Shown here in pieces: positions 36,450 to 62,311 of a DNA stretch of 64,000 nucleotides (positions within the stretch are counted from its first letter, which is position 1; every line of letters begins with the position of its first letter). The notes under the pieces were generated by a model. That model saw only the letters and a program-made list of their open reading frames with translations. It had not been told where the DNA came from and made no database searches. Position numbers and translations under genes: made by a program. Location: NCBI GenBank assembly GCA_025934435.1, contig JAICYB010000011.1:1-64000 (forward strand). Reading direction: 5' to 3'. This stretch comes from Actinomycetes bacterium (GTDB lineage: Bacteria > Actinomycetota > JAICYB01).

Positions 36450-36465
36450 GTTTCCCTCCTGTGCG

Positions 36466-36480
36466 GTATAAACATGATAC
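36466..36480. promoter_or_regulatory. Candidate TetR operator
   Basis: GTAT (36466-36469) and ATAC (36477-36480) form a dyad around AAACATG. It overlaps TATAAA (36467-36472), 18 nt downstream of CTGTCA (36443-36448), a possible forward promoter for the ABC operon. Confidence 0.35.
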
Positions 36481-36514
36481 GAGTGTCAGGTTCGGCTCGG
36501 GGAAGGGCAACTCA

Positions 36515-38991: not shown

Positions 38992-40409
38992 AGCGCTGGC
39001 TTTCGATCGGCGGTGTGTGCGTCGTCCTGCTCGCGTTCGTCCTTCCGTTCGACGCTCGCGCGACGACGGCGCTCGACATCGACGGCGAGACGGAAGCGTT
39101 CGCGGTTCGTGTCGAGTACGACCTTCCGCTCCCCGGAAGCATCGGGACGGAGCCACATGTCGTCGGTGAGATCCGGCGCACGTTCGGAGAGAACGCGAAA
39201 GGTCTCGCGGGCGCTCCGACGGACTTCACCGCGATCACCGGGGGCGCGGTCTACGACCCATGGTCGACGGTGAACGGCAACGACGGGCCACTCGCGGTGA
39301 GCGGCAACAGCACCGGCATCAAGGATCCGATCGATCCCCACAACGGCCTGCCGACGGCGGAGTGCTTCTACCCCGGACAGCCCGCCACCACGGTCTCGTG
39401 GCCTCGCGACCTCCGTGCCGACACGAAGCCGATCCCGCCGACGTCGTACGCGAACGCACAGTGCGGCGCCGGTCCGACGACGCAACTGACCGCCTGGTCG
39501 GCCTCCGACGACGTGCCGGGTTCGCCGACGGGAGCGCTCGGTTCCGTGCTGCACACCGGCGCGCTCGACGCGACGTCATTGCTGCAACCGGAGCACGGAG
39601 TCGTCACGTCGACGGCGCGCGCGTCGGCGCACGAGGTGTCCGTGCTCGGCGGTGCGGTCCGTATCGGTGGCGTCGAAGCCGAAGGCACCTCGACGGCGCA
39701 GGGTCCGGGCGGAGCCGACGGAACGAACAGTCACGTCGCGCTTTCGGACATCTCGGCCGGCGGACAGGTCTTCTCCGTCGCCGACGACGCGATCACCGTT
39801 GCCGGGAACACGTTCCCGATCGATTCGTCCGCGGGCCAAGCGTTCCTGAACAACGTGAACGCGGGCCTCGACGCGACCGGATGCAAGCTCTCGGTACTCG
39901 GCCCGGCGAACCCTTATCCGCAGGGGTTCCTCTTGTCGCGCAAGCCGCCGCAGATCGGCGTCGCGAAGGACGGCACCTTCGCCGCGTCGATGCACGGCGG
40001 GATGCTGATCCTCTGCGACCTTCCGCAAGACGTCACGACACCGACGACATTCACGCCGCAACGCGTGCAGATCCTTGTCGGGTTCGTGTACTCGATGGCT
40101 CGCGCGACGAAGGGCGACGCCGGCTTCGGCACCGGAGACTTCCTCGCCGGCGCCGGGAGCATCAACACTCCGTCGAAGACCGTCGACGTCCCGGGACCGT
40201 CCGCGGCGCCGGCACCGGTCGTCGCCGCGAAGACCGACACGAACAACGTGCCGCAAACGCAAGCGCTTCCCGCGTCCGCCGGCAGGACGATCCGCTACCG
40301 GCCGCTCGCGCGATCGACGCGGATCATCTTCATCGTCTTCGGCATCTTGCTCTTGATCGTCGCGACCAACGTCGCATCGCGCAGATTGAAAGAGCTCGTC
40401 GGATCGTGA
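38988..40409 (+). CDS. Unrecognised exported, C-terminally anchored protein in the Liv operon
   Basis: A 473-residue protein with a signal peptide (RWLSIGGVCVVLLAFVLPFDARA), a long outside region rich in Gly, Thr and Pro with beta-like repeats, and one C-terminal membrane helix (IIFIVFGILLLIVATNVAS) followed by a basic tail. About four Cys are spread through the outer part (for example TAECFYP, NAQCGAG, GCKLSVLG). I find no known domain. It is tied by ATGA to the multi-helix protein before it and by GTGA to the permease after it, so it may act with the substrate-binding protein at the membrane surface. Confidence 0.7.
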   Translation: MKRWLSIGGVCVVLLAFVLPFDARATTALDIDGETEAFAVRVEYDLPLPGSIGTEPHVVGEIRRTFGENAKGLAGAPTDFTAITGGAVYDPWSTVNGNDGPLAVSGNSTGIKDPIDPHNGLPTAECFYPGQPATTVSWPRDLRADTKPIPPTSYANAQCGAGPTTQLTAWSASDDVPGSPTGALGSVLHTGALDATSLLQPEHGVVTSTARASAHEVSVLGGAVRIGGVEAEGTSTAQGPGGADGTNSHVALSDISAGGQVFSVADDAITVAGNTFPIDSSAGQAFLNNVNAGLDATGCKLSVLGPANPYPQGFLLSRKPPQIGVAKDGTFAASMHGGMLILCDLPQDVTTPTTFTPQRVQILVGFVYSMARATKGDAGFGTGDFLAGAGSINTPSKTVDVPGPSAAPAPVVAAKTDTNNVPQTQALPASAGRTIRYRPLARSTRIIFIVFGILLLIVATNVASRRLKELVGS

Positions 40410-42481
40410 CCGAGTTCCTCGCGACGCTCCCCGGCGGCCTCGTCACCGGCGCGGTGTACGCGCTGCTCGCGATGGGACTCGTCTTCATCTACAAAGCGAC
40501 GCGCGTCCCGAACTTCGCGTACGGCGCGCTCGCCGCGCTCGTCGCCTTCTTCCACTACAGCCTCGTGAACGGACGACACGTCGGGATCCACCTGAACGTC
40601 CTGTTCGTCCATGCGGGATTCGACGCGACGATCCGGCTCCCGTTCTGGGGTGCGATGCCCGTATCGCTCGCGTTCGCGGCCGTCGTCGGATACGTGATCG
40701 AGCGATTCGTGATGCGTCCGTTCGCGCGGGCTCCGATGGTGACGAACATCATCGTGACGCTGGCACTTTCCGCGCTCTTCGGCGGCCTCGCGCAGCAATG
40801 GTTCGGAGCGAACGACCTGATCGTCCCGAACCGGCAGGCCATCTTCCCGCGGACGTCCGCCTTGTCGATCGGCGGCGCGAAGATGTCGTGGGAGCAGCTC
40901 GGCGTGATCGGCCTCGTCCTCGCGTTCGCCGGCGCGCTGTACTTCTTCTTCCGCTTCACCGAGACGGGTCTTGCGTTGCGAGCGGTCGCGACGGACCGCG
41001 ACGTCGCCTCACTGCAGGGCGTTTCGGTGCGGCGCGTCTCGCAGGTCGCGTGGATCGCCGGCTCGATGGCCGCCGGCGTCGCCGGGATCATGCTCGCGTC
41101 ACTCATCGTTTCGTCCAACCCGAGCTTGCTCGTGCTGCTCTCGATCTGGGGCTTCGCCGCGGCGATCGTCGGCGGGATGATCTCGTTTCCGATCGCCGTG
41201 GGGGCCGGATTCGGGATCGGGCTGTGCGTCGAGACCTTGCGTCACTACGTCTCGAAGGGTGACGCGACGAAGCTCGTCGGCACGCCCGAGCTCGTCGTGC
41301 TCGGCGCGGTCATCGTGCTGCTCGCTTCGCGTCCGTCGTGGATCTTCAAAGGCATACGCGAAGAGCAGGACTCCGGCGTCGTGTCGCGCGCATCCGGCGT
41401 CGACCTCGCGATCGGCCGGTGGATCGACCCCGTCGAGGCGTACCGGCTCGTTCGCGCCGCGACAGGACAGATACTTCCGCCTCGGTTGTGGACGGCGATC
41501 AAGCGCACCGTGCCCTGGCTCCTCGTCGCGCTCGCGCTCGCGTTCCCGCTCTTCCCGCTGCCGGAGTTCTGGACGTTCCCGCTCAATCTCACCCTGATCT
41601 TCCTGCTCGTCGGTCTGTCGTTCGTCGTCGTCGTCGGCTGGCTCGGACAGATCTCACTCGCGACGGGCGTGTTCGTCGCGATCGGTGGCGCGGGCGCGTA
41701 CATCGGCGCGAACTTCCTGCATCTGCCGTTCCCGCTGCCGATCGTCACCGGGATCTTGTTGTCGATCCCGGTCTCTGTGCTCATCGGTCTTCCGGCGCTT
41801 CGCCTGCGCGGGCTGCATCTCGCGATCGCGACGCTGCTCTACGGACTCGTCGTCGAACGCGCGCTGCTCCCCCGCTTCACGGCGGCGTCCGTGTTCCACC
41901 GGCCGTCGTTCCTGCTCTCCGACCGCGCGCTCTATTACGTGTTCCTCGTCTGCACGGCGCTCGCCTTCGCCTTCGCGTGGCGGTTGTCGAAGACCCGGAT
42001 GGGACGCGCCTTCCGCGCGATCCGAGATTCGGAAACGGTGGCGAGCGCATACGGCATCCAGCCCGTTCGGACGAAGCTCACGGGATTCGCTGTGTCCGGC
42101 GCGATCGGCGCGCTCGGCGGCGCGCTGCTGATCTACCAGCTCGGCTCGTTCCAAGCGCAGTACGGCACGAGCGGGTTCTCGATCGTCTGGTTGTTGAACG
42201 CCGTCGTCGGCGGTATCACGTCGATCGCCGGACCGGTCATCGCCGCCGTCGTTTTCGGACTGCTCCCCGTCGTCAGCCAAGGCGCGGTGCAAGCTGCCCA
42301 CATCTCCTTCTGGCCGCTCATCGCCGCCGCGGTGCTGACGATCGTGATCATGGCGATCAACCCCGAAGGTCTCGCGTCGTTCGCGCGTTTCCTCCGTACG
42401 CGTGTGAGCGCGCACGACGTCGAGGACGAGCAGGACCTCGAGGCGATCGAAGAGGCGTCGAAGGAGCTCGCGCGCGTATGA
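40406..42481 (+). CDS. Fused LivH-LivM permease
   Basis: A 691-residue permease that joins in one chain the LivH-type (residues about 1-320) and LivM-type (about 370-660) halves usually made as two proteins. LivH features are LLAMGLVFIYKATRVPNFAYGALAAL and FAAAIVGGMISFPIAVGAGFGIG; LivM features are GLSFVVVVGWLGQISLATGVFVAIGGAGAYI and SKTRMGRAFRAIRDSETVASAYGIQ (the coupling helix). It has about 16-18 helices and a Glu/Asp-rich cytoplasmic tail. GTG 40406 overlaps the previous stop as GTGA. It works with the two ATPases that follow. Confidence 0.88.
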   Translation: MTEFLATLPGGLVTGAVYALLAMGLVFIYKATRVPNFAYGALAALVAFFHYSLVNGRHVGIHLNVLFVHAGFDATIRLPFWGAMPVSLAFAAVVGYVIERFVMRPFARAPMVTNIIVTLALSALFGGLAQQWFGANDLIVPNRQAIFPRTSALSIGGAKMSWEQLGVIGLVLAFAGALYFFFRFTETGLALRAVATDRDVASLQGVSVRRVSQVAWIAGSMAAGVAGIMLASLIVSSNPSLLVLLSIWGFAAAIVGGMISFPIAVGAGFGIGLCVETLRHYVSKGDATKLVGTPELVVLGAVIVLLASRPSWIFKGIREEQDSGVVSRASGVDLAIGRWIDPVEAYRLVRAATGQILPPRLWTAIKRTVPWLLVALALAFPLFPLPEFWTFPLNLTLIFLLVGLSFVVVVGWLGQISLATGVFVAIGGAGAYIGANFLHLPFPLPIVTGILLSIPVSVLIGLPALRLRGLHLAIATLLYGLVVERALLPRFTAASVFHRPSFLLSDRALYYVFLVCTALAFAFAWRLSKTRMGRAFRAIRDSETVASAYGIQPVRTKLTGFAVSGAIGALGGALLIYQLGSFQAQYGTSGFSIVWLLNAVVGGITSIAGPVIAAVVFGLLPVVSQGAVQAAHISFWPLIAAAVLTIVIMAINPEGLASFARFLRTRVSAHDVEDEQDLEAIEEASKELARV

Positions 42482-43248
42482 CGACGATCCTTCACGTCGA
42501 CGGGGTCAAGCTCGCCTTCGGCGGGGTGAAAGCACTCGACGGCGTGACCTTCGACGTTCCGGCAGGCGAGATCGTCGGCCTCATCGGACCGAACGGCGCG
42601 GGCAAGACGACGCTCTTCGACTGCATCTCGGGCTACCAACGTCCCGACGAGGGGTCGATCACCTACGACGGCAACGTCGAGCTCGTCGGCCTCCCGCCGC
42701 ACGAGCGCGTCACGCACGGCATCGGCCGTCTCTTCCAGCAGGCGCGCATGTTCCCGTCCGTGTCGATACGCGACGTCTTGAAGACGGTGCAGCACCGCCG
42801 CATGAAAGCCGGACTGTTCCGTTCGGTGCTCGGTCTTGCCCGCGCCGAAGAGCGTGAGGTCACCGCGCGGGCGGACGAAGCCCTCGAGCTCGTCGGCCTC
42901 ACCGCCCACGCCGACAAACCCGCGATGGAGCTTTCGACGGGGATGCTCCGCCTCTGCGAGCTCGCGGCGATCGTGGCGGTTCGTCCGCGCCTGCTGCTGC
43001 TCGACGAACCCTCGTCGGGGATCGCGCAGAAGGAGACGGAAGCGTTGCTGCCGCTGCTGAAGCGGCTACGCGATCACCTCGACGCGACGGTGCTCGTGAT
43101 CGAGCACGACATGCCGCTCGTGATGGGTCTCGCCGACCGCATCGTCGCGATGGCGCAAGGCAAGGTGCTCACGGAAGGAACGCCCGCCGTCGTGCAACGT
43201 CACCCGGACGTGCTTGCGTCCTACCTCGGAACGAGAGCCGCGCGATGA
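42478..43248 (+). CDS. livG: LivG-type ABC ATPase
   Basis: A 256-residue ATPase of the branched-chain amino acid transporter family. Walker A is GPNGAGKTT (about 37-45), Walker B LLLLDEP, and the switch His is in VIEHDMPLV. The signature is unusual, LSTGMLRLCE rather than the typical LSYGxQR of LivG. It also has the LivG insert RLFQQARMFPSVSIRDV. ATG 42478 overlaps the permease stop as ATGA, and its own stop overlaps livF as ATGA, so the two ATPases are made together. Confidence 0.9.
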   Translation: MTTILHVDGVKLAFGGVKALDGVTFDVPAGEIVGLIGPNGAGKTTLFDCISGYQRPDEGSITYDGNVELVGLPPHERVTHGIGRLFQQARMFPSVSIRDVLKTVQHRRMKAGLFRSVLGLARAEEREVTARADEALELVGLTAHADKPAMELSTGMLRLCELAAIVAVRPRLLLLDEPSSGIAQKETEALLPLLKRLRDHLDATVLVIEHDMPLVMGLADRIVAMAQGKVLTEGTPAVVQRHPDVLASYLGTRAAR

Positions 43249-43967
43249 CGCTGCTTCGTTCGGAGGGGATCGACGTCCACTACGGACGCGTCCAGGTGCT
43301 CTACGACGTCTCGATCGAGGTCAACGAAGGCGAGTTCGTGGCCCTGCTCGGCACGAACGGCGCCGGCAAGTCGACGTGGCTGAAAGCGGTCTCGAACCTC
43401 GTCACTCCGAGCGCGGGGAAGGTGTTCTTCGATGGACGGGAGATCACCGCGCTCCCCCCGGACGAGATCGTCGCGCGCGGTCTCGGCCATGTCCCGTCCG
43501 GACGGGGCACGCTTCCCGACCTCACGATCGACGAGAACCTGCGCCTCGGCGGACATCTGCTCCGCAACGAGAAGGCGAAGCGCCGCGAGGCGATCGACGA
43601 GATCTACGCGACGTTCCCGTGGATGAAGGACCGCCGGACGCAGCTCGCCGGGACGCTCTCGGGAGGCGAGCAGCAGATGCTCGGCATCGGACGCGCACTC
43701 GTGAATCGTCCGAAGCTCTTGATGATCGACGAGTTGTCGCTCGGCCTCGCACCGATCGTCGTCGAAGAGATCTACGAGCAGATCGCGAAGCTGAATGCGA
43801 ACGGCTTGACGATCCTCATCGTGGAGCAGAACGCGACGCTCGCGATGGAAGTCGTCGAGCGTGTGCTGTTCATGGAGAAGGGCCGCGTGCAGTTCTCCGG
43901 CCGAGGCCGCGATCTGCTCGCGCGCAAAGACCTGCTGCGAAGCGTCTTCCTCGGCGCGAAGCGCTAA
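43245..43967 (+). CDS. livF: LivF-type ABC ATPase
   Basis: A 240-residue ATPase. Walker A GTNGAGKST (about 36-44), signature TLSGGEQQMLGIGRALV, Walker B LLMIDELSLGLAP, and switch region LIVEQNATLAMEVVERV are canonical LivF. It pairs with LivG below the fused permease. The stop codon overlaps, by three bases on the opposite strand, the stop of the histidine kinase gene, leaving no room for a terminator. Confidence 0.92.
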   Translation: MTLLRSEGIDVHYGRVQVLYDVSIEVNEGEFVALLGTNGAGKSTWLKAVSNLVTPSAGKVFFDGREITALPPDEIVARGLGHVPSGRGTLPDLTIDENLRLGGHLLRNEKAKRREAIDEIYATFPWMKDRRTQLAGTLSGGEQQMLGIGRALVNRPKLLMIDELSLGLAPIVVEEIYEQIAKLNANGLTILIVEQNATLAMEVVERVLFMEKGRVQFSGRGRDLLARKDLLRSVFLGAKR

Positions 43968-45364: not shown

Positions 45365-46468
45365 TTAGCCCCGGACGGCCTCGCGGGTCGTGGTGAGCTC
45401 GTCGAGGATCTCCGGTACGGGCGAAACGCCGATCCCGGGCCCCGTCGGGACGCGGAGCGTTCCCTCTTCGAGGACGAACGGCGGTGTGACGTCCTGCGCG
45501 AAGTACCGCTCCGAGGCGGACGTATCACCGGGGAGCCGGAAGTTCGGCAGCGCGGCCAGAGCCACGTTCGCCGCGCGCCCGATCCCGGACTCGAGCATCC
45601 CACCGCACCAGACGGGGATGCCGCTCGCCTCGCACACGTCGTGCACGCGCCGCGCCTCGAGGTAGCCGCCGACGCGTCCCGGCTTGATGTTCACGATCGA
45701 GCACGCGCCGATCGCGATCGCTTTGGCCGCCGCGTGCGCCGACACGATCGATTCGTCCAGACAGATCGGCGTCTTGACGATCTTCACGAGCTCGGCGTGA
45801 TCGCGCACGCGCTCTTCCCCGAGCGGCTGCTCGATGAGCAACAGATCGAAGGGATCGAGCTTCGCGAGATGACGCGCGTCCGACAGTTCGTACGCCTGGT
45901 TCGCGTCGACCTGGAGCAGGATGTCGGGGTTCGCTTCCCGGACGGCTTTGACGGCTTCGACGTCCCATCCGGGCTCGATCTTGAGCTTGATGCGGACGTA
46001 TCCCTGCGCGAGGTACCCGGCGACCTGATCGAGAAGCTCGGGTATCGATCCCGGTATCCCGACGGACACGCCGCAGTCGACGCGATCGCGCACCGCACCG
46101 AGGTGTTCGGCGAACGACTCACCGCGCGCACGCAGCTCCGCATCGAGGAGCGCCGTCTCGACGGCGGCTTTCGCCATGCGATGTCCGCGGACGAGCGTCC
46201 ACAGCGACGCGAGCGATGCGCTCGTCACATCATCGCGAGCGAACACCGGCGGCAACAGGAAACGCTTGATCACGTCTTGAGCGCCGTCCACGTATTCGGA
46301 CGAATAACCGGGGTTGTCCATCGCGACGCACTCGCCCCAGCCCTCCGCGTCCGGCGTGACCACGTGCACGAGCAGGATGTCGCGCACCGACTCGGAGCCG
46401 AAGGATGTGCGGAACGCGCCCTTCAGCGGCATGCGGATCCGGATCAGTTCGACGTTGTCGAGTTTCAT
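45365..46468 (-). CDS. MenC/NSAR-type enolase-superfamily enzyme (N-succinylamino acid racemase-like)
   Basis: A 367-residue member of the o-succinylbenzoate synthase/N-succinylamino acid racemase group. It has the KxK pair Lys161-Leu-Lys163 (VRIKLKIEPGWD), metal ligands Asp188 (VDANQAY), Glu213 (IEQPL) and Asp238-Glu239 (CLDESI), and the second catalytic Lys262 (NIKPGRVGG). The context lacks other men genes but has a GNAT gene, so racemisation of N-succinyl (or N-acyl) amino acids is likelier than menaquinone synthesis. ATG 46468 overlaps the PucR stop as ATGA. Confidence 0.88.
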   Translation of the reverse strand: MKLDNVELIRIRMPLKGAFRTSFGSESVRDILLVHVVTPDAEGWGECVAMDNPGYSSEYVDGAQDVIKRFLLPPVFARDDVTSASLASLWTLVRGHRMAKAAVETALLDAELRARGESFAEHLGAVRDRVDCGVSVGIPGSIPELLDQVAGYLAQGYVRIKLKIEPGWDVEAVKAVREANPDILLQVDANQAYELSDARHLAKLDPFDLLLIEQPLGEERVRDHAELVKIVKTPICLDESIVSAHAAAKAIAIGACSIVNIKPGRVGGYLEARRVHDVCEASGIPVWCGGMLESGIGRAANVALAALPNFRLPGDTSASERYFAQDVTPPFVLEEGTLRVPTGPGIGVSPVPEILDELTTTREAVRG

Positions 46469-49057: not shown

Positions 49058-52000
49058 ATGGGAAGGCCTCTCGACTACTCCGACCTGTTCGACCTCCGCG
49101 AGGCCTCCGACCCGCGGATATCGCCCGACGGGACGCGCATCGCCTTCGTCGTGTCGAGGGCGGACGAAGCCGCGGACGCGAACCGTTCCGAGATCTGGTC
49201 GGTCGCGACGGCCGGCGGTGATCCGTCCCGGCTGACCTACGGGAACAACGACGTCGCGCCGAGATGGTCGCCGGACGGATCGCAGCTCGCGTTCGTCCGC
49301 GACGGGCAGCTCTGGCTCCTGCCCGCGGGCGGCGGCGAGGCGCGGAAGCTCACCGATATGCCACTCGGCGCCGGCGCCGCCGAGTGGTCACCCGACGGCG
49401 AACGCATCGCGATCGGCGCGCCGGTGAATCTCAGCGGCGAGACGAAGGACGGTGCACCGCTCGTCGTGCGAACCGGCGCATACAAGGGCGACGGCGCCGG
49501 TTACTTCGGCGAGCGTCGTCAGCAACTCTTCATCGTCGATCCGCAGACCGGCGAAGCGAAGCACGTCGTCGCGGGCGATGTGAACGTCGGATCGAAGTCG
49601 TGGTCGCCGGACGGAACGAAGATCGCGTACATCGTGTCCACGCCGAACATGGATCTCGATCCGCGCGGACAGCTGCACATCTTCGACACCAAGACGGGAC
49701 GGAGCACCCGTCTCGCCGCCGACTGGGAAGGCTCCTTCGCCGTCGTCGTATGGGCCGAGGGTTACCTGCTCTGCGTCGGGTCTCCACACCCCGGCCCGTG
49801 CCACGCGCGTCTGTACGCCGTTCCCGAAACGGGAGGCGGCGTGAGCGAACTGACTCGCGACTTCGATCGCAACATCATGCCCGGGGGCCCGGCGTATCCC
49901 GGCGCATTCCCGCAGATCGCCGGCGACAAGCTGATCTTCTGCGCACGCGACCGCGGTTGCACGCACGCCTACGAGGTGCACGACTGGAACGTCACGAAGA
50001 TCGTCGGAGGCGACGACCGCGTCGTGGTCGGCCTTACTTCCGCGAAAGACACGCTCGCGTACGTGCTTTCGACGCCGGACTCGCCCGGCGACGTGTATGT
50101 GTCGTCCATCGATGGATCGAACGAACGACGTCTGACCGAACTCAACAAAGACCTCATCGACCAGATCGACTTCCACGAGCAGACGTCCCGCGTCTTCACG
50201 GCGCCGGACGGTCTCGAGATCCACGGGTGGGTGATCAGAGGTGACGGTCACGGACCGCAACCGCTCCTTGTCGACATCCACGGCGGACCGCACAACGCAT
50301 GGAACGGCTCCTTCGACACGATCCACCTCTATCACGAGGTGCTCGCGTCGCACGGCTGGACGATCCTGAAGCTCAACCCGCGCGGGTCCGACGGCTACGG
50401 CGAATCCTTCTACACGGCCGTCGTCGGCAAGTGGGGCGTCGTCGACGAGGACGATTTCCATTCGGCGATCGACACGCTCGTCGCCGAAGGGACCGCCGAC
50501 CCGCGTCGCGTGGGCGTATGCGGCTACAGCTACGGCGGGCACATGACCAACTGGCTCACGGCGCGAAGCGACCGTTTCGCGGCGGCGATGTCCGGTGGAT
50601 GCGTGTCGAACCAAGCGAGCATGTACGGCACGTCCGACCTCGGGTGGTACCTCGGCCTCTACGAGATCGGCGGCGAGCTGCACCAGGACCGCGACCGCTT
50701 CGCGGAGCTGTCACCGATCTCCTACGTCGAGAACGTCAAGACGCCGACGCTCATCCTTCACGGCGAGAACGACCTGCGTTGTCCCGTCGGCCAAGCCGAA
50801 GAGTGGTTCGTCGCGCTCCGCCGTCTCGGCGTCACGACGGAATTCGTGCGTTACCCGGGCGGAAGCCACCTGTTCATCCTCCTCGGCCGCCCGTCACATC
50901 GCATCGACTACAACCGCCGCATCGAGGACTGGATGGTCCGCTACACGCGCGAAGGGATCCGTCCGAAGCGACGCCTCGACACAGCGCGGCTCCAAGCGCG
51001 GCTCACCGAGCTCGCCCTGAAACATCAGGTTCCCGGTGCGACGGTCGGGGTGCTGCACGACGGCGAGATCTTCGAAGCCGCCGCGGGTGTCACGAGTCTC
51101 GAAACGAGCGTGCGCGTGACGACGGACACCGTCTTCCAGATCGGCTCGATGACGAAGCCGTGGACGGCGACCGTCATCATGCAACTCGTCGACGAAGGAA
51201 AGATCGACATCGACGCACCCGTCCGCACCTATCTCCCGGACTTCAAGGTCGCCGACCCCGAGGTCACGGAGAAGGTCACGCTTCGTCATCTGCTCTCGCA
51301 CACGAGCGGGATCGACGGCGATCACTTCAAGGACTTCGGACGAGGCGACGATTGCCTCGAGAAGTATGTCGACGCGTGCGACACGCTCGGGCAGACGCAC
51401 CCGCTCGGCGCGACGATGTCGTATTGCAACACGGGCTTCTCGATCGCCGGACGGATCATCGAAGTGCTCGACGGCAAGGTGTGGGATCAGTCGATGCGCG
51501 ACCGGATATTCACGCCGCTCAACCTGACGCACACGTCGACGCTCCCGGAAGAAGCGATCATGCGCCGCGCCGCCGTCGGCCACGTGAAACCGACCCCCGA
51601 CTCCGACTGGCGACCGGCCCCCGTTTGGGTGCTGCCGCGCGTTGCCGGACCGATGGGCCTCATCAATTCGACGGTGCGCGACGTGCTCACCTACGCGCAG
51701 GTACATATGGACGGCGGGCGCGATCTGCTCTCGAAGCGATCCGTCGAAGCGATGCAGGAGCCGCAGGTCGACATCCCCGATCCCCACTCGCTCGGCTCCC
51801 ACTGGGGCGTCGGCTGGATCCTCTTCGATTGGCCGCGGCGAAGCGAAGCGGAGCCGGATGGTCGTACGAAGCTCTACGGACACGACGGCAACACCATCGG
51901 GCAGTCCGCGTTCCTGCGCATCGCACCGGACGCGGATCTCGCGATCACGCTCCTGACGAACGGCGGCAACGCGGGCGCGCTGTACCGCGAACTGTTCCGC

Positions 52001-52357
52001 GAGCTGTTCGCCGAGCTCGCCGACATCGAGGTGCCGATGTTGCCCCAGCGTCCGCAGACGCCGCTCGAGATGGACCTCGTGCCCTACGCGGGCACCTATG
52101 AGCGTCTCGGGATCACGCTCACGCTCGACGCGGAAGACACGCGTCTTGCCGGCACCGTCCGGCAGACCGGTGAGCTCGCGAAGGTGCTCGACACACCGGA
52201 ACGGAAGATCTCCCTCGTGCCCGTCGACGCCGAGACGTTCTTGATGTTCGACGCCGAGGAGAACGGCCCGGGTTCGCCCGCGGTCTTCTACGACTTCGAC
52301 GACGGCTCGCCGCGATACCTGCACATGGGCGCCCGGACGCACCCACGCAAGTCGTGA
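49058..52357 (+). CDS. Fusion of an S9 prolyl oligopeptidase and a class C beta-lactamase-fold hydrolase
   Basis: A 1099-residue protein with two enzymes. Residues about 1-640 are an S9 peptidase: TolB-like beta-propeller repeats (RWSPDGSQLAFVR, EWSPDGERIAIG, SWSPDGTKIAYI) and a catalytic domain with Ser491 (GYSYGG), Asp572 (GENDLRC) and His604 (GGSHLF). From about 640 a beta-lactamase/D-aminopeptidase domain follows with Ser697-x-x-Lys700 (GSMTK), Tyr789-x-Asn791 (SYCNTG) and His942-x-Gly944 (GHDG), and a C-terminal beta-barrel (about 1000-1099). No signal peptide is seen. A strong GAAGGGGG site precedes ATG 49058. The fused pair points to stepwise attack on peptides, probably with D-residues. 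The stop overlaps the next gene as GTGA. Confidence 0.86.
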   Translation: MGRPLDYSDLFDLREASDPRISPDGTRIAFVVSRADEAADANRSEIWSVATAGGDPSRLTYGNNDVAPRWSPDGSQLAFVRDGQLWLLPAGGGEARKLTDMPLGAGAAEWSPDGERIAIGAPVNLSGETKDGAPLVVRTGAYKGDGAGYFGERRQQLFIVDPQTGEAKHVVAGDVNVGSKSWSPDGTKIAYIVSTPNMDLDPRGQLHIFDTKTGRSTRLAADWEGSFAVVVWAEGYLLCVGSPHPGPCHARLYAVPETGGGVSELTRDFDRNIMPGGPAYPGAFPQIAGDKLIFCARDRGCTHAYEVHDWNVTKIVGGDDRVVVGLTSAKDTLAYVLSTPDSPGDVYVSSIDGSNERRLTELNKDLIDQIDFHEQTSRVFTAPDGLEIHGWVIRGDGHGPQPLLVDIHGGPHNAWNGSFDTIHLYHEVLASHGWTILKLNPRGSDGYGESFYTAVVGKWGVVDEDDFHSAIDTLVAEGTADPRRVGVCGYSYGGHMTNWLTARSDRFAAAMSGGCVSNQASMYGTSDLGWYLGLYEIGGELHQDRDRFAELSPISYVENVKTPTLILHGENDLRCPVGQAEEWFVALRRLGVTTEFVRYPGGSHLFILLGRPSHRIDYNRRIEDWMVRYTREGIRPKRRLDTARLQARLTELALKHQVPGATVGVLHDGEIFEAAAGVTSLETSVRVTTDTVFQIGSMTKPWTATVIMQLVDEGKIDIDAPVRTYLPDFKVADPEVTEKVTLRHLLSHTSGIDGDHFKDFGRGDDCLEKYVDACDTLGQTHPLGATMSYCNTGFSIAGRIIEVLDGKVWDQSMRDRIFTPLNLTHTSTLPEEAIMRRAAVGHVKPTPDSDWRPAPVWVLPRVAGPMGLINSTVRDVLTYAQVHMDGGRDLLSKRSVEAMQEPQVDIPDPHSLGSHWGVGWILFDWPRRSEAEPDGRTKLYGHDGNTIGQSAFLRIAPDADLAITLLTNGGNAGALYRELFRELFAELADIEVPMLPQRPQTPLEMDLVPYAGTYERLGITLTLDAEDTRLAGTVRQTGELAKVLDTPERKISLVPVDAETFLMFDAEENGPGSPAVFYDFDDGSPRYLHMGARTHPRKS

Positions 52358-55385: not shown

Positions 55386-56276
55386 TCAGTGGCGGCAGTG
55401 CCGGACGCTCCCGGGCGGATCACAGTTGTCCGGCTCGTTGCGCACGACCTTCGAACGACGAAGCGTTACGGAGCCGGCAGCGGCCTCGACGCCACCCCCG
55501 CTGATCCCCGCCGTGTTCTGCTTGACGGACGAATCCTTGAGTTGCGTCGTCCCGCCGAGGTTCTGGATCCCGCCGCCGAAGTGGCCGGCGAAGTTGTGGC
55601 GGACGATCGATCGAACGAGCTTCGTCACCGCGCCGAATTGCGTATTGATGCCCCCGCCATCATCGGGAGCGGAATTGAATTCGACGACGGTCCGACGGAG
55701 AGACAACGTCCCGGAATTGAGAACGCCGCCGCCACCATCAGATGTCGTTTCGTTCGCATCGAGTTCGCTCGACACGATCGTGGCGACGCCGGAGGCATCG
55801 ACCTCGACGGCACCGCCGTCCCGCGCCAGGTTGTCCTGCATCACGACATGTTTCGCGACGAGAGTCCCCGTCGCCTCCACGCGAACCGCTCCGCCTTCGC
55901 CGCTCGAACTGCCGTTCTCGAGGGTGACGCGCGACAGGTGAAGGATGCCTGCCGGGTTCACAGTGAAGATCCTGAATGCGGCCGCGCTGAGAGAGCGCTT
56001 GAGGATCGTCGTCCTGCCACCGACGATCGTGATGTTCCCCGTGATGGGCGGGAACGCTTCCGTCGACGTCGAGGGGGTGATCACCGTGTAGAAGCAGTTC
56101 GAAGCGAGCTCGATCGTCCCGCTTCCGGCCGTGTTCGCATTCGTGATCGCCGTCTGGAGGTCGGTCACCGAACAGCCCACCTTCACGCCGCCCGCGGCCG
56201 ACGAAGGTGTCGCGACGGCGACGGCGCCGACAACAGTGAGGCCGGCGGCGGCAACAACTAACCTCAGACGCCGCAT
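55386..56276 (-). CDS. Secreted right-handed beta-helix protein, copy 1
   Basis: A protein of about 296 residues with signal peptide (RRLRLVVAAAGLTVVGAVAVA) and then imperfect repeats of about 20-25 residues rich in Gly, Asn and Val (FRIFTVNPAGILHLSRVTLENGSSSGEGGAV; DGGAVEVDASGVATIVSSELDANETTSDGGGG). This is the pattern of parallel beta-helix, polymorphic outer-surface or pectate lyase-like proteins. The C-terminus NCDPPGSVRHCRH is shared with the next copy. Cys pairs at both ends of the mature part may hold the helix. ATG 56276 lies 8 nt from the preceding stop. Adhesion or surface function is only a guess. Confidence 0.75.
   Translation of the reverse strand: MRRLRLVVAAAGLTVVGAVAVATPSSAAGGVKVGCSVTDLQTAITNANTAGSGTIELASNCFYTVITPSTSTEAFPPITGNITIVGGRTTILKRSLSAAAFRIFTVNPAGILHLSRVTLENGSSSGEGGAVRVEATGTLVAKHVVMQDNLARDGGAVEVDASGVATIVSSELDANETTSDGGGGVLNSGTLSLRRTVVEFNSAPDDGGGINTQFGAVTKLVRSIVRHNFAGHFGGGIQNLGGTTQLKDSSVKQNTAGISGGGVEAAAGSVTLRRSKVVRNEPDNCDPPGSVRHCRH
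56098..56160. repeat. 63-bp perfect direct repeat, copy A
   Basis: Identical base for base to 56999-57061, 901 bp away in the same orientation. It lies in the beta-helix genes and encodes a segment reading LQTAITNANTAGSGTIELAS. Such identity between otherwise diverged copies suggests recent gene conversion or strong constraint. Confidence 0.85.
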
Positions 56277-56283
56277 CACCGCA

Positions 56284-57150
56284 TCAATGGTGACAGCGAC
56301 GGATCGTTCCGGTAGGGGCGTAACAGTTGTTCGGGGAGTTATGCACGACCCTCGAGCCACGAAGCGTTACGGAGGTGGCGCTGCCGCTCGCGATCCCTCC
56401 TCCGTTGGTTCCGGTGTTCCGGGTGATGGACGAATCGACGACTTTCAACGTGCCCAGGTTCGCGATGCCGCCCCCGGGGCCACCGCTGCGGTTGTAGCGC
56501 ACATTCGACCGCACCAGCGTCGTCCTACCGCTGGGCTGGGTGTTGATGCCGCCGCCGTTGATCGGGCCCGAGTTCGACTCGACCACGGTGTGTCGCAAGA
56601 CGAGTGTCCCGAAACTTATCACCGCTCCGCCGCCGACAGCGTTCGACTCGTTCGCGTTGAGGTGACTCGACCTCAGCGTGGCAACCCCCATGGCATCGAC
56701 GTCGAGCCCACCACCGTTGGCGGCCTGGTTGTCCGCGATCACGAGCTGCTTTCCCACCAGCTGACCCATCGCCAGCACGCGGATGCCACCACCCGGACCC
56801 GTCGTGCTGCCGTTTTCGACCGTCAGGTGCGAAAGGTGCAGAACGCCTCCAGCGTTCACGGCCAAGATCCGGAACGCGCTCGACGCCGCAAGCGAACGCC
56901 GGAGGACCGTCCCCTTACGACCGATGACGGCGACATGGCCCGTGATCGGCGGAAACGCCTCGGTCACCGTCGAGGGGGACAGAACCGAATAGACGCAATT
57001 CGAAGCGAGCTCGATCGTCCCGCTTCCGGCCGTGTTCGCATTCGTGATCGCCGTCTGGAGGGCGGTCACGGAGCAACCGACCCTGACGCCGCCGGACGCG
57101 GACGCTCCGGACGCGGTGAGGACGGAGGATAACGCCACGGCGGCCACCAA
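56284..57150 (-). CDS. Secreted right-handed beta-helix protein, copy 2
   Basis: A 288-residue paralogue of the downstream beta-helix gene, with the same layout: signal peptide (VAAVALSSVLTASGASA), an identical early block, repeated GGGxxx turns (GGGIRVLAMG, GGGLDVDAMG, GGGINTQPSG, GGGIANLGTL) and a C-terminus NCYAPTGTIRRCHH. GTG 57150 is taken; the frame is open upstream through TTG 57153 and an alternative start there is possible. It and copy 1 are 7 bp apart on the same strand. The two arose by tandem duplication and kept a 63-bp identical stretch. Confidence 0.75.
   Translation of the reverse strand: MVAAVALSSVLTASGASASGGVRVGCSVTALQTAITNANTAGSGTIELASNCVYSVLSPSTVTEAFPPITGHVAVIGRKGTVLRRSLAASSAFRILAVNAGGVLHLSHLTVENGSTTGPGGGIRVLAMGQLVGKQLVIADNQAANGGGLDVDAMGVATLRSSHLNANESNAVGGGAVISFGTLVLRHTVVESNSGPINGGGINTQPSGRTTLVRSNVRYNRSGGPGGGIANLGTLKVVDSSITRNTGTNGGGIASGSATSVTLRGSRVVHNSPNNCYAPTGTIRRCHH
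56999..57061. repeat. 63-bp perfect direct repeat, copy B
   Basis: Partner of 56098-56160. Flanking sequence diverges quickly on both sides, so the exact identity is local. Confidence 0.85.
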
Positions 57151-57226: not shown

Positions 57227-58039
57227 TCAGAAGGCGTAGAACTGCCGCCAGGCCGTCAGCCAGTCCGGGCCCGTCGACACGATCTTCCTGGGTTCGACGA
57301 CTTCGATCCCGGGACGGTAGCGGTAGGACGCCGCGTTCTCCGTCGTCGCGAACTCGACCGTGATCTCGCACGGTTTGCCGGGGTCGTAGGGCTTCACCGC
57401 GTTGAAGTTCGCGAGCGCTGCCATCGCACCGTCCTCGATCATCTTCCGTGCTTTCACCGGATGGATGTTCCGCGCGCTCTGACGACCGAAGCTGCGTTTC
57501 ACGGCAACTGTTGTGAGTCCGTCACCGAGCAGTTCCTTCGTCTCGCGGCAGACGGCTTCGTCCCCAGTGACGAGCACGATCGGACAGCCCCAGTGACCGC
57601 AGAGCGCGGCGTTGATGCCCGTCTCGCCGACGAGCGTGCCGTTGAACCACAGGTTGTACCACTGCGTTCCGCTGACGGTGTGGCAGAGGCCGCCGTCGGC
57701 GGTCCCCGCCATCGCGTGCATAGCGACGCACAGCGCGGCGTCGCATCCTTGCTCGAGGATCTCGGTGTACTCCGTCCATGAATGTTGGACGACCCACTCG
57801 CAGTCGGGATCGAGGCGCTCGGGGATCAGGGAATTGAACGTCCAACCTTTGCCGGCGCCGTGGCAATCCATGACGACGATCTCGGTCGCGCCGGCGCGCT
57901 TCGCGCCGCGTACCGCCGCGTTGATCTCTTCGGTGTAGAGAACGCGTCCTTCTTCGTAGAGGCGCTCGCCGCCCGTCACCTGCTCCCACTTGACGATGCC
58001 GGAGACGCCCTCCATGTCGGAGATGATGAAGACGCGCAC
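57227..58039 (-). CDS. dppA: D-aminopeptidase DppA (M55)
   Basis: A 270-residue zinc aminopeptidase of the DppA family, which releases N-terminal D-amino acids, for example from D-Ala-D-Ala or D-Ala-containing peptides. Metal and catalytic residues match Bacillus subtilis DppA: Asp8 and Glu10 (ISDMEGVSG), His60 (MDCHG), His108 (AMHAMAG) and Glu139 (LVGETGINA). GTG 58039 has a TAGTCT box 6 nt upstream, inside the stop region of the previous gene, so it has its own leaderless promoter. It fits the D-peptide theme of the block. Confidence 0.92.
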   Translation of the reverse strand: MRVFIISDMEGVSGIVKWEQVTGGERLYEEGRVLYTEEINAAVRGAKRAGATEIVVMDCHGAGKGWTFNSLIPERLDPDCEWVVQHSWTEYTEILEQGCDAALCVAMHAMAGTADGGLCHTVSGTQWYNLWFNGTLVGETGINAALCGHWGCPIVLVTGDEAVCRETKELLGDGLTTVAVKRSFGRQSARNIHPVKARKMIEDGAMAALANFNAVKPYDPGKPCEITVEFATTENAASYRYRPGIEVVEPRKIVSTGPDWLTAWRQFYAF

Positions 58040-58045
58040 GGCGTA

Positions 58046-58051
58046 AGACTA
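58046..58051 (-). promoter_or_regulatory. Probable -10 box of dppA (leaderless)
   Basis: Reverse-strand TAGTCT (58051-58046) is an exact TANNNT match ending 6 nt before GTG 58039. It overlaps the stop codon of the upstream beta-lactamase-fold gene. Confidence 0.6.
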
Positions 58052-59404
58052 CTTAACGCGTTTCGCGAGGCGTCCTACGAAGATGTAATCCGGACGACCG
58101 GCGCGGTCGAATCCCTGGAAGTTCAGGAGCCCCGCGACTTTTCCTTCGCCGTTGACGATCGCGAAACGTTCCTTATCGAGCGGCGTGAGCGGGAAGACCT
58201 GCGGTGGCGACGGTTCCTCTCCGGCGAGACTCGCGGCCTTCATCGTGGCCTTGAGCTTGTTCTCCTCGAGCACCTCGACGTCGACGGTCACATTGAGGCG
58301 TTCGTACGTACCCGCGTACTTCCGGAGATCGATGTCGACGGGCTTCTTCGGCACTTCCGGGAGTTCCGGACGATCGAGCTTGAACCGCTCCTTGAAGATC
58401 TCGCGCGACAGCGGATCCGCGAGCATCGGACCGGTGTCCGCGTTCGTCAGGATGCACACCGCCGCACGCAGCTCGGGGACGACCCACAGGAACGACAGCT
58501 GACCGATCGTCCCGCCGTTGTGCGAGATGACCTTCTTCCCCTTCCAATCCTCGATCAGCCAGCCGAGCCCCATAGCGCCCGTTTCGCTCATCGACAGCTT
58601 CACCTGCGGGGTCTGCATGAGCTTCGCGGACGCCGGGGTGAGGATCTGCGCGCCGTTCGCTGCCTGTCCGTCGTTCATATGGATCGCGCCGAAAGCAACC
58701 ACGTCGCGCGCGGACGCCATCTGCGTCGCACCGGCCGGCGCCGTCGATCGCGGCAACGCCCACGGCCGGCCGATGACGGCCTTCTTCTCGCCGGGCTTGT
58801 GGACGTGGCCGGCGGACGCGCGGAACAAGATCGCGTCACCGGGAAGCGTCGCGTGCTCGTTCAATCCGGCGGGTTGGTAGATCTTCTTGCGGATCGCTTC
58901 GTCCCAATTCATGCCGGTGAGAACTTCCACGAGTCGTCCGGCGACGACGAACGCCGCGTTCGAGTACGACCAGAACTTCCCGATCGGATGCGAGAGTCCG
59001 ATCCGGCGAAGCGAGCTCACGTAGCGCTCGACGGCGTCGTCGCCGAGTCCGAAGTCCTTGAAGTAGTCGCCCTCGATCCCGCTCGTGTGGGTCACGAGCT
59101 GGCGAACCTTGATCTTCTCGGCCCCCGGATCCTTGAGCTTGAACTTGGGGAGATAGGTGACGACGGGCTTGTCGAGGTCGACGAGGCCGTCGTCGACGAG
59201 CTGCATGAGGAGGGTCGTCGTGTAGACCTTCGTGATCGAGCCGATCTGGAAGATCGAATCCGGCGTCACCGCGACCTTCGTGTTCCGGTTGAGGACCCCG
59301 GTGACGGCCGTTTCGACGCCGTCGTCCGTGAGGATCGCCACCGACACCCCGGGCACGTCGAACTGCTTCGCAAGCTCCTTGAGCCGTCCCGTCAGGTCGT
59401 TCAT
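58049..59404 (-). CDS. Beta-lactamase-fold serine hydrolase
   Basis: A 451-residue hydrolase of the same family as the two at 49058-53748. Catalytic residues are Ser56-Ile-Thr-Lys59, Tyr-Ser-Asn (FWSYSNAAF) and a HNGGTIG block; a C-terminal beta domain (DIDLRKYAGTYERLNVTV...) ends it. The start ATG 59404 is chosen because an AAGGAGG sequence lies just before it; an ATG 48 nt further upstream is unsupported. D-aminopeptidase, DD-peptidase or esterase activity are all possible. Being the third such gene here, it strengthens the peptide-hydrolysis theme. Confidence 0.87.
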   Translation of the reverse strand: MNDLTGRLKELAKQFDVPGVSVAILTDDGVETAVTGVLNRNTKVAVTPDSIFQIGSITKVYTTTLLMQLVDDGLVDLDKPVVTYLPKFKLKDPGAEKIKVRQLVTHTSGIEGDYFKDFGLGDDAVERYVSSLRRIGLSHPIGKFWSYSNAAFVVAGRLVEVLTGMNWDEAIRKKIYQPAGLNEHATLPGDAILFRASAGHVHKPGEKKAVIGRPWALPRSTAPAGATQMASARDVVAFGAIHMNDGQAANGAQILTPASAKLMQTPQVKLSMSETGAMGLGWLIEDWKGKKVISHNGGTIGQLSFLWVVPELRAAVCILTNADTGPMLADPLSREIFKERFKLDRPELPEVPKKPVDIDLRKYAGTYERLNVTVDVEVLEENKLKATMKAASLAGEEPSPPQVFPLTPLDKERFAIVNGEGKVAGLLNFQGFDRAGRPDYIFVGRLAKRVK

Positions 59405-59507
59405 CTCCGCCTCCTTGTGGACAGAATCTGACATCCGCCGCCGGACCTCCAATCGTCAGAACCCACCACGGCGAGCAGGCTCGTTCGTCGCCCGGTACAA
59501 AGGGACG

Positions 59508-60065
59508 GTGCGAAGCCGCTGGTTGAATGTTCAGATCTTGGGCCGGGCGCGATTGACTCCGATCGTCTTGGCCATCGCGATACTCACGACCTCCTGCGGG
59601 CTGTTCCGTCCGAGCGAGCTGAACTTCCGCACCGACTCGCGCCTCGAGTTCACGGCGCCGCCGGCTCGGACGCTCGTGCGGACGCCCCTCCATGTCGCGT
59701 GGCAGATCCACGACTTCCAGATCGTCCCGCCGCACTCGGCCCCACCCACGAAGGGCGCCGGCTACTTCGCGATCTTCGTCGACCGCAGCCCGATCAAACC
59801 GGCCCGCACGATGCGGGACGTCGCGAGCCGCGACGAAACGTGTCTCGCTCGTCCCGGCTGCCCGGACGAGGTGTACCTCGAACAGCGACAGATCTTCACG
59901 ACGACGAACGAGGACCTCACGATCCCGCAGATCCCGTCCATCCCCGGTGACAGCGAGAAGATCCAGCAGCACACGGTGACCGTCGTGCTGATGGATACGT
60001 CCGGACATCGCATCGGCGAGAGCGGCTGGGAGCTCGACCTCCGCATGCGGAAGGTGGGCTTATGA
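59508..60065 (+). CDS. Predicted lipoprotein of the second transporter locus
   Basis: A 185-residue protein with a basic N-region, hydrophobic segment (PIVLAIAILTTSC) and a Cys that may be a lipobox (TTSC, weak). The mature part reads LNFRTDSRLEFTAPPARTLVRTPLHVAWQ and later GYFAIFVDRSPIKP, a beta-sandwich-like unknown domain, with a Cys pair (CLARPGC). It is too short to be the usual binding protein. GTG 59508 follows TACAAA (59496-59501) by 6 nt; earlier in-frame sequence is antisense to the hydrolase gene. It overlaps the fusion gene by 4 bp (ATGA). Confidence 0.65.
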   Translation: MRSRWLNVQILGRARLTPIVLAIAILTTSCGLFRPSELNFRTDSRLEFTAPPARTLVRTPLHVAWQIHDFQIVPPHSAPPTKGAGYFAIFVDRSPIKPARTMRDVASRDETCLARPGCPDEVYLEQRQIFTTTNEDLTIPQIPSIPGDSEKIQQHTVTVVLMDTSGHRIGESGWELDLRMRKVGL

Positions 60066-62311
60066 GCAAGCGGAAGCCCACGCCGAAGCGCAAGCCGCCC
60101 GCGCGCAAGAAGGTCGCCACGAAGGTCGCCGCGAAGATCGAAGGCCTCGCGGCCGTCGACGACATCGAGCAGACCAGGAACGCGCTGCGGGACGAAGCAC
60201 GCCGGAAGCTCGGCGTCATGGGAGACGAGAACACGTCGAGCTTCCGCGAGATCGTCCGGCGCTACAACCTGTCCTACTACCCGCTGATCGCGCTCGGACT
60301 GCTGTCGACGTCGGACACGTTCCAGTCGTACGCCTTCACCGTGCTCACGCCGGAGATCAGCCGCACGATCGGGATCAGCGTGGCGGCCATCGCCGCAGCG
60401 CGCGCATTGCAAGGACTCGCGATCGCCGTCGCTCCCCTGCCGGTCGCCGCGCTCACCCAGAATCGCGCACGCCGCGCGCTGCTCTGCATCGTCACGGGGT
60501 TCATCTGGAGCACCATCACCTTGTTCACGGGGTTCGTCACTTCGCTCGTCGGCTTGATCGCGATCCTCTCACTCGACGGGTTGACGTCGGGAAGCGTGCT
60601 CGCGCTGCATGCGCCCCTGATCATGGATTCGTATCACCCCGAATCGCGCGTCCGCGCCCTGTCGACCTACGCATCGTTCGATCGCATCGGCCTCGTCCTC
60701 TCACCGCTGCTCGTCGGCGTGCTCGCATCGGTTCTGGGATTCACCTGGCGCGGCGTTTTCATCTGCCTCGGTGGCGTCTCGCTGGCGATGACGGCGATCT
60801 CGATCCGCTTGCGCGACCCGGGATTCGGGAAGTGGGACACCGAGCAACTACGAGCGAGCGTCCACGAAGCGCACGGCGAGAGCGGCGAGCTCGCCGAGGA
60901 AGATGTGACGCTCAACTTCTGGGAAACGTGCCGCCGGATGCTTCTCATCCCGACGAACCGACGGTGCCTCGCGGGATTCGCCGTGTTCGGGATGCTGTCG
61001 GTGCCGCTCGGGACGTTCATCTCGTTCTTCTTGGACCAGCGCTGGAATCTCGGACCCGGCCAGCGCGGCGCGTTCTTCGCCTTCTACGCGTTCTGCGGGG
61101 TCGTCGCGCTCCTCGTCTACGGGAACCGGGGCGAGAAGCAGTTCCGCGCAGCACCCGGCCGCGTTCTTCGCGCAGCCGGTTACATGCTCGCGATCGTCAT
61201 CACCTTCATCGCCCTCGGCGGCGTGATGCCGATCTTCGGCCTCATGCTCGCCTGCTTCGGGATCGGCGGCGCCGGCGTCGCCGTGCTCACGCCGCTCCTC
61301 GGCATCGCGATCCTTTCGATCATCCCGGCAAACATGCGGCCGCACGCACAGGCGCTCGTCGCGATCTTCAGCGCGGTGGGCGCGGTCGCCGGAGCGATCC
61401 TGCTCGGCGGGATCCAGAATCAGTACGGCATCGGCGGCGCGATGGTTTCCGTGGCGATCCCCGGCGTGCTCGGCGCGCTGATCATCGCGAGCGCCGGGAA
61501 GCTCGTCCAAGGCGATCTCGATCGCATGATCGACGAGGTCCTCGAAGGTGAAGAGATACGGCGCCTGCGCGCGTCGGGCGGACATCTCCCGATGCTCGCC
61601 GCGCGTGGCATCGACTTCTCGTACGGCCAGCTGCAGGTGCTCTTCGATGTCGACTTCTCCGTCGACGACGGCGAGATGGTCGCACTGCTCGGGGTGAACG
61701 GCGCCGGCAAGTCGACATTGCTGAAGGTCATCTCGGGCATCGGACTCCCCTTCCACGGCAGCGTCCGTTTCCGCGGGCAGGAGATCACCTACCTCGACGC
61801 GGAGCGCCGCCTCCGCCTCGGGATCACGCAGATCCCCGGGGGACGCGCCGTCTTCGGACCGATGACGGTCGTCGAGAACCTGCGAAGCTTCGGCTACACG
61901 ATCGCCGGCAGCAGGCGCGCGGTGGACGAAGCGCTCGACAAGGCCTTCGACGCGTTCCCGCGTCTCGACGAGCGCCGTAACTCTCTCGCCGCGACGCTGT
62001 CCGGCGGCGAACAGCAGATGCTCGGCTTGTCCAAAGCGTTGATGCTGCAACCGCGCCTGCTGCTGATCGACGAGCTCTCGCTGGGCCTCGCTCCGGTGAT
62101 CGTGCAGCAACTGCTCGAGATGGTCCGACGCATCAACGACGAGGGCACCGCCGTCGTGCTCGTCGAGCAGTCCGTGAACATCGCGCTCAACCTCGTCGAG
62201 CACGCGTATTTCATGGAAAAGGGTGAGATCCGCTTCGACGGGAAGGCGCGTGATCTCTTGCGCCGCGACGACCTGCTGCGAGCCGTGTTCCTGCAAGGAA
62301 CGCGGCCATGA
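60062..62311 (+). CDS. MFS transporter fused to a LivF-type ABC ATPase
   Basis: A 749-residue protein with three parts. A Lys-rich start (residues 1-28), then 12 helices of a major facilitator (about 72-480; a GAP between helices 6 and 7 includes the acidic stretch HGESGELAEEDV), and, from about 508, an ABC ATPase of LivF type: Walker A GVNGAGKST (544-552), signature LSGGEQQMLG (646 onward), Walker B LLLIDELSLGLAP (666 onward), VLVEQSVNIALNLVEHAYFMEKG. Such an MFS and ABC ATPase fusion is odd, since MFS carriers use ion gradients, not ATP. The ATPase probably serves the fused permease that follows (ATGA overlap). It replaces a separate LivF here. Confidence 0.85.
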   Translation: MSKRKPTPKRKPPARKKVATKVAAKIEGLAAVDDIEQTRNALRDEARRKLGVMGDENTSSFREIVRRYNLSYYPLIALGLLSTSDTFQSYAFTVLTPEISRTIGISVAAIAAARALQGLAIAVAPLPVAALTQNRARRALLCIVTGFIWSTITLFTGFVTSLVGLIAILSLDGLTSGSVLALHAPLIMDSYHPESRVRALSTYASFDRIGLVLSPLLVGVLASVLGFTWRGVFICLGGVSLAMTAISIRLRDPGFGKWDTEQLRASVHEAHGESGELAEEDVTLNFWETCRRMLLIPTNRRCLAGFAVFGMLSVPLGTFISFFLDQRWNLGPGQRGAFFAFYAFCGVVALLVYGNRGEKQFRAAPGRVLRAAGYMLAIVITFIALGGVMPIFGLMLACFGIGGAGVAVLTPLLGIAILSIIPANMRPHAQALVAIFSAVGAVAGAILLGGIQNQYGIGGAMVSVAIPGVLGALIIASAGKLVQGDLDRMIDEVLEGEEIRRLRASGGHLPMLAARGIDFSYGQLQVLFDVDFSVDDGEMVALLGVNGAGKSTLLKVISGIGLPFHGSVRFRGQEITYLDAERRLRLGITQIPGGRAVFGPMTVVENLRSFGYTIAGSRRAVDEALDKAFDAFPRLDERRNSLAATLSGGEQQMLGLSKALMLQPRLLLIDELSLGLAPVIVQQLLEMVRRINDEGTAVVLVEQSVNIALNLVEHAYFMEKGEIRFDGKARDLLRRDDLLRAVFLQGTRP

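Follow-up and report, generated by a model that had tools for sequence, protein, structure and literature searches.

An MFS domain and a LivF-type ABC ATPase are joined on one chain in a protein that is real and conserved in many actinobacteria. ABC importers are ATP-driven and MFS carriers are ion-driven, so that the two are textbook opposites; here both transporter types share a single polypeptide. The example analyzed lies in a window of 64,000 nucleotides, the whole stretch of DNA under study (contig JAICYB010000011.1 of an Actinomycetes bacterium). The system appears to be a HAAT-type (LivFGHM) ABC importer whose LivF ATPase bears an extra 12-helix MFS domain, and the reading favored on the basis of the sequence comparisons, with a probability of roughly 45%, is that this domain senses substrate or docks partners and would thereby tune the importer. 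One branch has lost ion-coupling residues from its MFS half, which is still strongly constrained, and this offers a direct test of other functions of the MFS fold. With the fusion, the plan of a HAAT importer gains a lipoprotein and an accessory domain in the membrane. Automatic annotation will wrongly name the fusion proteins MFS transporters or LivF.

The preliminary description of this DNA placed an MFS domain and a LivF ATPase on one 749-residue chain, and the reading frame, Pfam, NCBIfam and AlphaFold2 all agree with it: a linker helix connects the 12-helix MFS domain to a complete LivF-type ABC ATPase (Table 1). Pfam matches MFS_1 at residues 83-380 (85.7 bits, cut-off 33.4) and ABC_tran at residues 528-671 (91.5 bits), and the best NCBIfam model is LivF at 193 bits, under the LivF equivalog cut-off of 441. 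The AlphaFold2 model, built on an alignment of 42 homologues (mean pLDDT 89.1, pTM 0.83), has an N-terminal helix, twelve long helices within residues 73-480, a helix at 482-504 and the ATPase fold from residue 512. By sequence, the nearest solved relative of the MFS domain is the D-galactonate transporter DgoT (6e9n, E 5e-11). The closest solved fold to the ATPase domain is 1ji0 (TM 0.90 over target); a fold search with the whole fusion model returned almost only ATPases. The linker helix carries a DLDRMIDE pattern that is kept across clade A, the clade of the window's protein; D485 of the linker was rejected as a fusion-specific residue because unfused MFS proteins have it too.

The ATPase had been called a canonical LivF, which holds for its Walker A (G544-T552), signature (S647-G649) and Walker B (D670-E671), all intact and conserved to invariant among the 42 homologues, but not for the residue after the catalytic Glu; this is Leu, giving DEL in place of the usual DEP, a mark of the fusion's LivF lineage. 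Two further features noted at the outset are present but of narrower meaning: the Lys-rich N-terminal tail is particular to the window's genome, the part shared with homologues being limited to a short charged helix that precedes TM1, and the acidic insert between helices 6 and 7 is the variable middle (residues 263-284) of the central cytoplasmic loop, the loop's least conserved part.

Table 1. Positions of the fusion gene, its domains and the associated genes (window numbering unless contig or locus is given)
Feature	Position	Strand	Basis or remark
Ordinary HAAT operon without MFS: binding-protein-like gene, LivH-LivM chain, LivG, LivF with DEL	36242-43967	+	
N-succinylamino-acid racemase / o-succinylbenzoate synthase relative	45365..46468	-	phmmer E 4.6e-160 to 1sja
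S9 prolyl oligopeptidase + S12 beta-lactamase-like domain, one 1099-residue chain	49058-52357	+	
M55 D-aminopeptidase, possible pathway partner	57227..58039	-	Pfam Peptidase_M55, E 8.3e-76
S12 beta-lactamase-like serine hydrolase, possible pathway partner	58049..59452	-	Pfam Beta-lactamase, E 9.3e-61
Small lipoprotein, about 180 aa	59523..60065	+	Lipobox TTSC, conserved pattern, AlphaFold2 beta-sandwich
MFS-LivF fusion protein, 749 aa	60062..62311	+	Single open frame without internal stop
12-helix MFS domain (residues 73-480)	60278..61501	+	Pfam MFS_1, AlphaFold2 helices
Linker helix, TM12 to LivF (residues 481-508)	61502..61585	+	AlphaFold2 helix 482-504
LivF-type ABC ATPase domain, DEL ending Walker B (residues 509-746)	61586..62299	+	Pfam, NCBIfam, motifs, fold
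LivH-LivM-LivG one-chain permease/ATPase, 965 aa	62308..64000, on to contig 65205	+	Pfam, LivH/LivM/LivG profiles
Two binding-protein genes, head-on to LivHMG	contig 65202-66677 and 66776-68386, beyond the window	-	Profile match
LivH-LivM-LivF-LivG, whole HAAT core in one 1253-residue frame, window's genome	L046:8268-12026	-	MFS-free

The lipoprotein, fusion and permease genes are coupled through four-base overlaps, the lipoprotein stop overlapping the fusion ATG (ATGA at 60062) and the fusion stop overlapping the ATG of the following gene at 62308. The expectation that this following gene would be a LivHM permease was right as to the permease domains (BPD_transp_2, 145.6 bits, two stretches) but incomplete, since the gene encodes LivH, LivM and LivG as one 965-residue chain whose C-terminal part, past the window end, is the LivG ATPase. 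LivG and binding-protein genes, which had been looked for past base 64000, are both there, LivG ending by contig position 65205 and two binding-protein genes coming next. The latter (L039:11203-14387, - strand) are arranged in tandem and have no Pfam match of their own; the profile that finds them also finds a Kribbella gene that matches Peripla_BP_6 (E 6.9e-10). The locus thus holds all the parts by which a HAAT importer is recognized, i.e. a LivF-type ATPase, the LivH/LivM permease, LivG and a binding-protein partner. An ordinary, MFS-free HAAT operon lies 16 kb from the fusion in the same window. The small lipoprotein, whose TTG start codon is a guess, is predicted to be a beta-sandwich (AlphaFold2 pLDDT 90); it has no Pfam match, and a fold search gave no PDB match with E < 0.001. 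Its gene stands directly upstream of the fusion in 31 of 35 clade A loci vs 0 of 21 loci of clade B.

A search for the domain order found it in Kribbella, Actinomadura, Actinocrispum and Amycolatopsis, beside Liv genes. Among the window's genome and its relatives, a protein search found full-length fusions in 7 of 61 genomes, with up to seven per genome. A pattern search of 84,980 species genomes recovered fusions at 70-73% identity in the cultured Kribbella pittospori, Kribbella capetownensis, Actinomadura rubrisoli and Actinocrispum wychmicini and one at 43% identity in Amycolatopsis jejuensis, together with many actinobacterial MAGs and one MAG labelled Chloroflexi. A profile of the MFS part alone (from alignment A2; cut E 1e-30 or better) matches 17 of 397 genomes of the phylum (31 hits) and, in one large class, 22 of 297 (36 hits). 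Outside its phylum the fusion almost never occurs; in that of the Chloroflexi MAG it occurs in 1 of 301 genomes, which is that MAG itself. Within Kribbella it is found in 2 of 38 genomes, a patchiness that suggests gain and loss, and a search of plasmids gave a single partial match, in Embleya.

In the loci that were fetched LivF is on the same chain as the MFS domain and Liv permease or LivG genes lie alongside, and fused genes with enough flank adjoin LivH, LivM or LivG genes. The unfused exceptions are L100 (seen whole as L124) and L166, with a third case, G628, having a frame of 434 aa only. Unfused members of the fusion's MFS type are very rare, so that the possibility raised in the preliminary description, that homologues of this order are always two separate proteins, did not hold. 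An assembly error or chance read-through of two neighboring genes, conceivable in an assembly of 133 contigs, can be set aside almost entirely, as the same order recurs in single-contig genomes (among them G017, G031, G374, G487 and G544) and in cultured isolates, mostly at 52-74% identity, and every fused chain examined has a DEL-type LivF. The unfused MFS protein at L124:8647-11700 (- strand) is close to clade B and lies near frames for an AfsR-like regulator and a P-type ATPase; it is either ancestor-like or a released copy. At L080:6410-9439 (+ strand) the MFS match of a fusion is in two stretches, and the adjoining frame has odd, weak LivF/LivG matches.

The fused systems come in two main layouts. 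In clade A, MFS-LivF is accompanied by LivH-LivM-LivG, and a smaller third group of fusions has the same layout; in clade B, LivH-LivM is accompanied by MFS-LivF-LivG, mostly as one chain. LivG is nearly always covalently joined in fusion systems, either to LivHM or to LivF. The same LivF lineage also contains complete MFS-free importers, with layouts LivHM plus LivF-LivG (L144), LivG-LivF plus LivHM (L145, L146) and the single LivH-LivM-LivF-LivG chain of 1253 residues (L046), so that the MFS domain is an addition to a lineage able to work without it. All fused LivF examined have DEL at the end of Walker B; among the 33 unfused LivF in the tree 26 have DEP and six have DEL, and most of these six sit near the fused ones. 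Chance or many independent fusions were rejected, since the LivF tree needs 3 changes of the fused label vs 27.4 in shuffles. The well-supported branches of the LivF tree are compatible with a single origin, and a quick MFS tree, in which the outgroup branches are long, puts three generic MFS proteins between two large groups of fused proteins. It appears from these trees that the fusion arose once or twice.

Over 26 clade A loci the mean pairwise identity is 48% for the MFS domain, 53% for LivM, 60% for LivH and 74% for LivF. A constraint so close to that of LivM marks the MFS domain as a working part and not a decaying tether. Pairwise identities of MFS and LivM are correlated in clade A (r = 0.88), as shared descent alone would also make them. 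Outside LivF, conservation peaks at the two ends of loop 6-7, the central cytoplasmic loop (0.81 and 0.82), compared with 0.54-0.73 for the helices; cytoplasmic loop 10-11 scores 0.76. In MFS proteins, motif A contributes to inner-side gating; proton coupling involves motif B and the acid in TM1. The motif A Asp of loop 2-3 (position 133) is Asp in 23/23 clade B proteins, 6/6 of the third group and 3/3 unfused MFS proteins vs 0/34 in clade A, where it is Gln in 30/34, including the window's protein. The motif B Arg of TM4 (position 169) is kept by 22/23 clade B proteins, and 33/34 clade A proteins have Leu, Met, Gly, Val or Thr there (Leu169 in the window's protein). TM1 residue 88 is Asp in 23/23 of clade B vs Gln in 26/34 of clade A. 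The window's protein has the 12-helix fold and keeps R138 as a remnant of motif A, but motif A Asp and motif B Arg are absent. Clade A has in addition its own conserved intramembrane Asp172 and His183 in TM4. The premise that the MFS part is ion-driven is therefore weakened for clade A, in which these three residues have been replaced by conserved neutral ones. Clade B and the third group keep the canonical motifs. To judge from these residues, the clade A domain no longer looks like a canonical proton-driven carrier.

How such a system might work can be proposed along the lines of other HAAT importers: ATP hydrolysis by LivF and LivG would power transport through LivH-LivM, presumably in the direction of uptake. 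The MFS domain would be an accessory membrane module next to the permease, kept in place by the linker helix. In clade A, where the canonical charge network is missing, it may be a pseudo-carrier that tunes the importer through substrate sensing or docking. Against this reading, the conserved Asp172 and His183 of clade A could serve a different ion coupling, and because clade B and the third group keep canonical motifs, a role common to all fusions must fit working carriers too.

Possible, though somewhat doubtful, is that the MFS domain functions as an ion-driven carrier of the importer's own substrate or a related compound, providing a low-affinity, export or counter-flow route tethered to the high-affinity ATP-driven importer. 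All twelve helices are kept under strong constraint, the motif A Asp, motif B Arg and TM1 acids persist in clade B and the third group, and clade A offers the TM4 pair; however, the neutral replacements in clade A affect three residues typical of proton-driven MFS proteins, and a carrier of this type is very rarely found unfused. It seems unlikely that the domain merely anchors LivF in the membrane or acts as an assembly scaffold bringing it to the permease. The conserved linker helix and the covalent tethering of LivG as well would suit such a role, but twelve helices far exceed the needs of an anchor, related importers fuse LivF to LivG or LivM without any MFS domain, and the MFS helices are constrained nearly as much as LivM.

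The preliminary description had weighed a second uptake route or regulator against a hybrid system. An MFS domain that is gated or driven by the LivF/LivG ATPases, or that hands substrate to LivHM, i.e. a hybrid primary/secondary transporter with an ATP-run MFS fold, is improbable, and slightly more so in the strict form in which ATP hydrolysis gates or drives the MFS domain and substrate passes through it. The physical joining to an ATPase, the conserved cytoplasmic face and the loss of ion-coupling residues from an otherwise strongly constrained domain would all fit a true hybrid. However, the LivH-LivM pathway is present as well, and the sole published claim found of an ABC ATPase powering an MFS protein, that for Mef(A)/Msr(D), has a simpler reading. 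Since MFS-free importers occur in the same lineage, an accessory or regulatory role appears likelier than an obligate hybrid.

Clues to the substrate come from linked genes. A relative of the Amycolatopsis N-acylamino-acid racemase lies about 14 kb from the fusion and is a probable pathway partner of the importer. Each of the 8 genomes checked has one copy of it, which shares a contig with a fusion; this 8/8 overstates the linkage because several of the genomes were picked for a racemase already seen there. Within the fetched flanks it is found at 10/35 clade A loci vs 0/21 clade B loci (p = 0.009). The gene was rejected as a menaquinone MenC, since no MenD passes the cut-off in the window's genome and three other genomes have a separate MenD locus with adjoining MenC (over the cut-off in two). 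Nearer to the fusion are an M55 D-aminopeptidase and an S12 serine hydrolase; an M19 dipeptidase and the S9-S12 chain of Table 1 are also near. S12 relatives lie near several other clade A loci, and their enrichment was dropped as not significant (p = 0.24 at the strict cut-off). At several loci racemase or D-peptidases are not near the fusion. Gene linkage points to a D-amino acid or a D-amino-acid-containing peptide as the probable substrate. The window also contains two neighboring, similar secreted repeat proteins (VGCSVT.LQTAITNANTAGSGTIELASNC) at 55386-56360 and 56284-57150 (- strand).

No description of an MFS-LivF fusion was found in the open-access literature, and as far as that search reached the fusion is undescribed and the earlier statement that no biochemical role is described for it is borne out. 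Several known systems resemble it in part. UhpC is an MFS-type sensor. Rgt2 and Snf3 are MFS-type sensors as well (PMC10876965). In these proteins a carrier-derived 12-helix domain senses instead of transporting, a resemblance that would extend to the fusion's MFS domain only; unlike the fusion they signal to a kinase or via a cytoplasmic tail. No sensor of the UhpC or Snf3/Rgt2 type is known to share a chain with an importer ATPase. Mef(A)/Msr(D) shares with the fusion an MFS protein and an ABC-type ATPase proposed to act together, the former being powered by the latter (PMC6079230); the simpler reading follows from MsrD being an ABC-F translation factor (PMC10314930). Unlike the fusion, Mef(A) and Msr(D) are separate proteins with no LivHM-type permease. 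The LplT-Aas system, an MFS lysophospholipid flippase coupled to an acyltransferase and in some bacteria a single chain, is a precedent for the coupling of an MFS protein to a cytoplasmic enzyme, and the LplT central loop has been exchanged for that of LacY to test partner-enzyme binding (PMC11416262); its partner is an acyltransferase, unlike an ABC ATPase with its own permease.

With MFS_1 carriers such as DgoT (6e9n) the fusion shares the 12-helix fold, the cytoplasmic central loop and the motif A remnant R138; unlike them it is joined to an ABC ATPase and, in clade A, is without the motif A Asp, motif B Arg and TM1 Asp. With the HAAT importers (LivFGHMJ, UrtABCDE; TC 3.A.1.4) it shares LivF, LivG, LivH and LivM with intact ATPase motifs and adjoining Peripla_BP_6-type binding proteins. 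Unlike those importers, its LivF carries a 12-helix MFS domain and ends Walker B in DEL and not DEP, its LivH, LivM and LivG form one chain, and a lipoprotein belongs to the operon.
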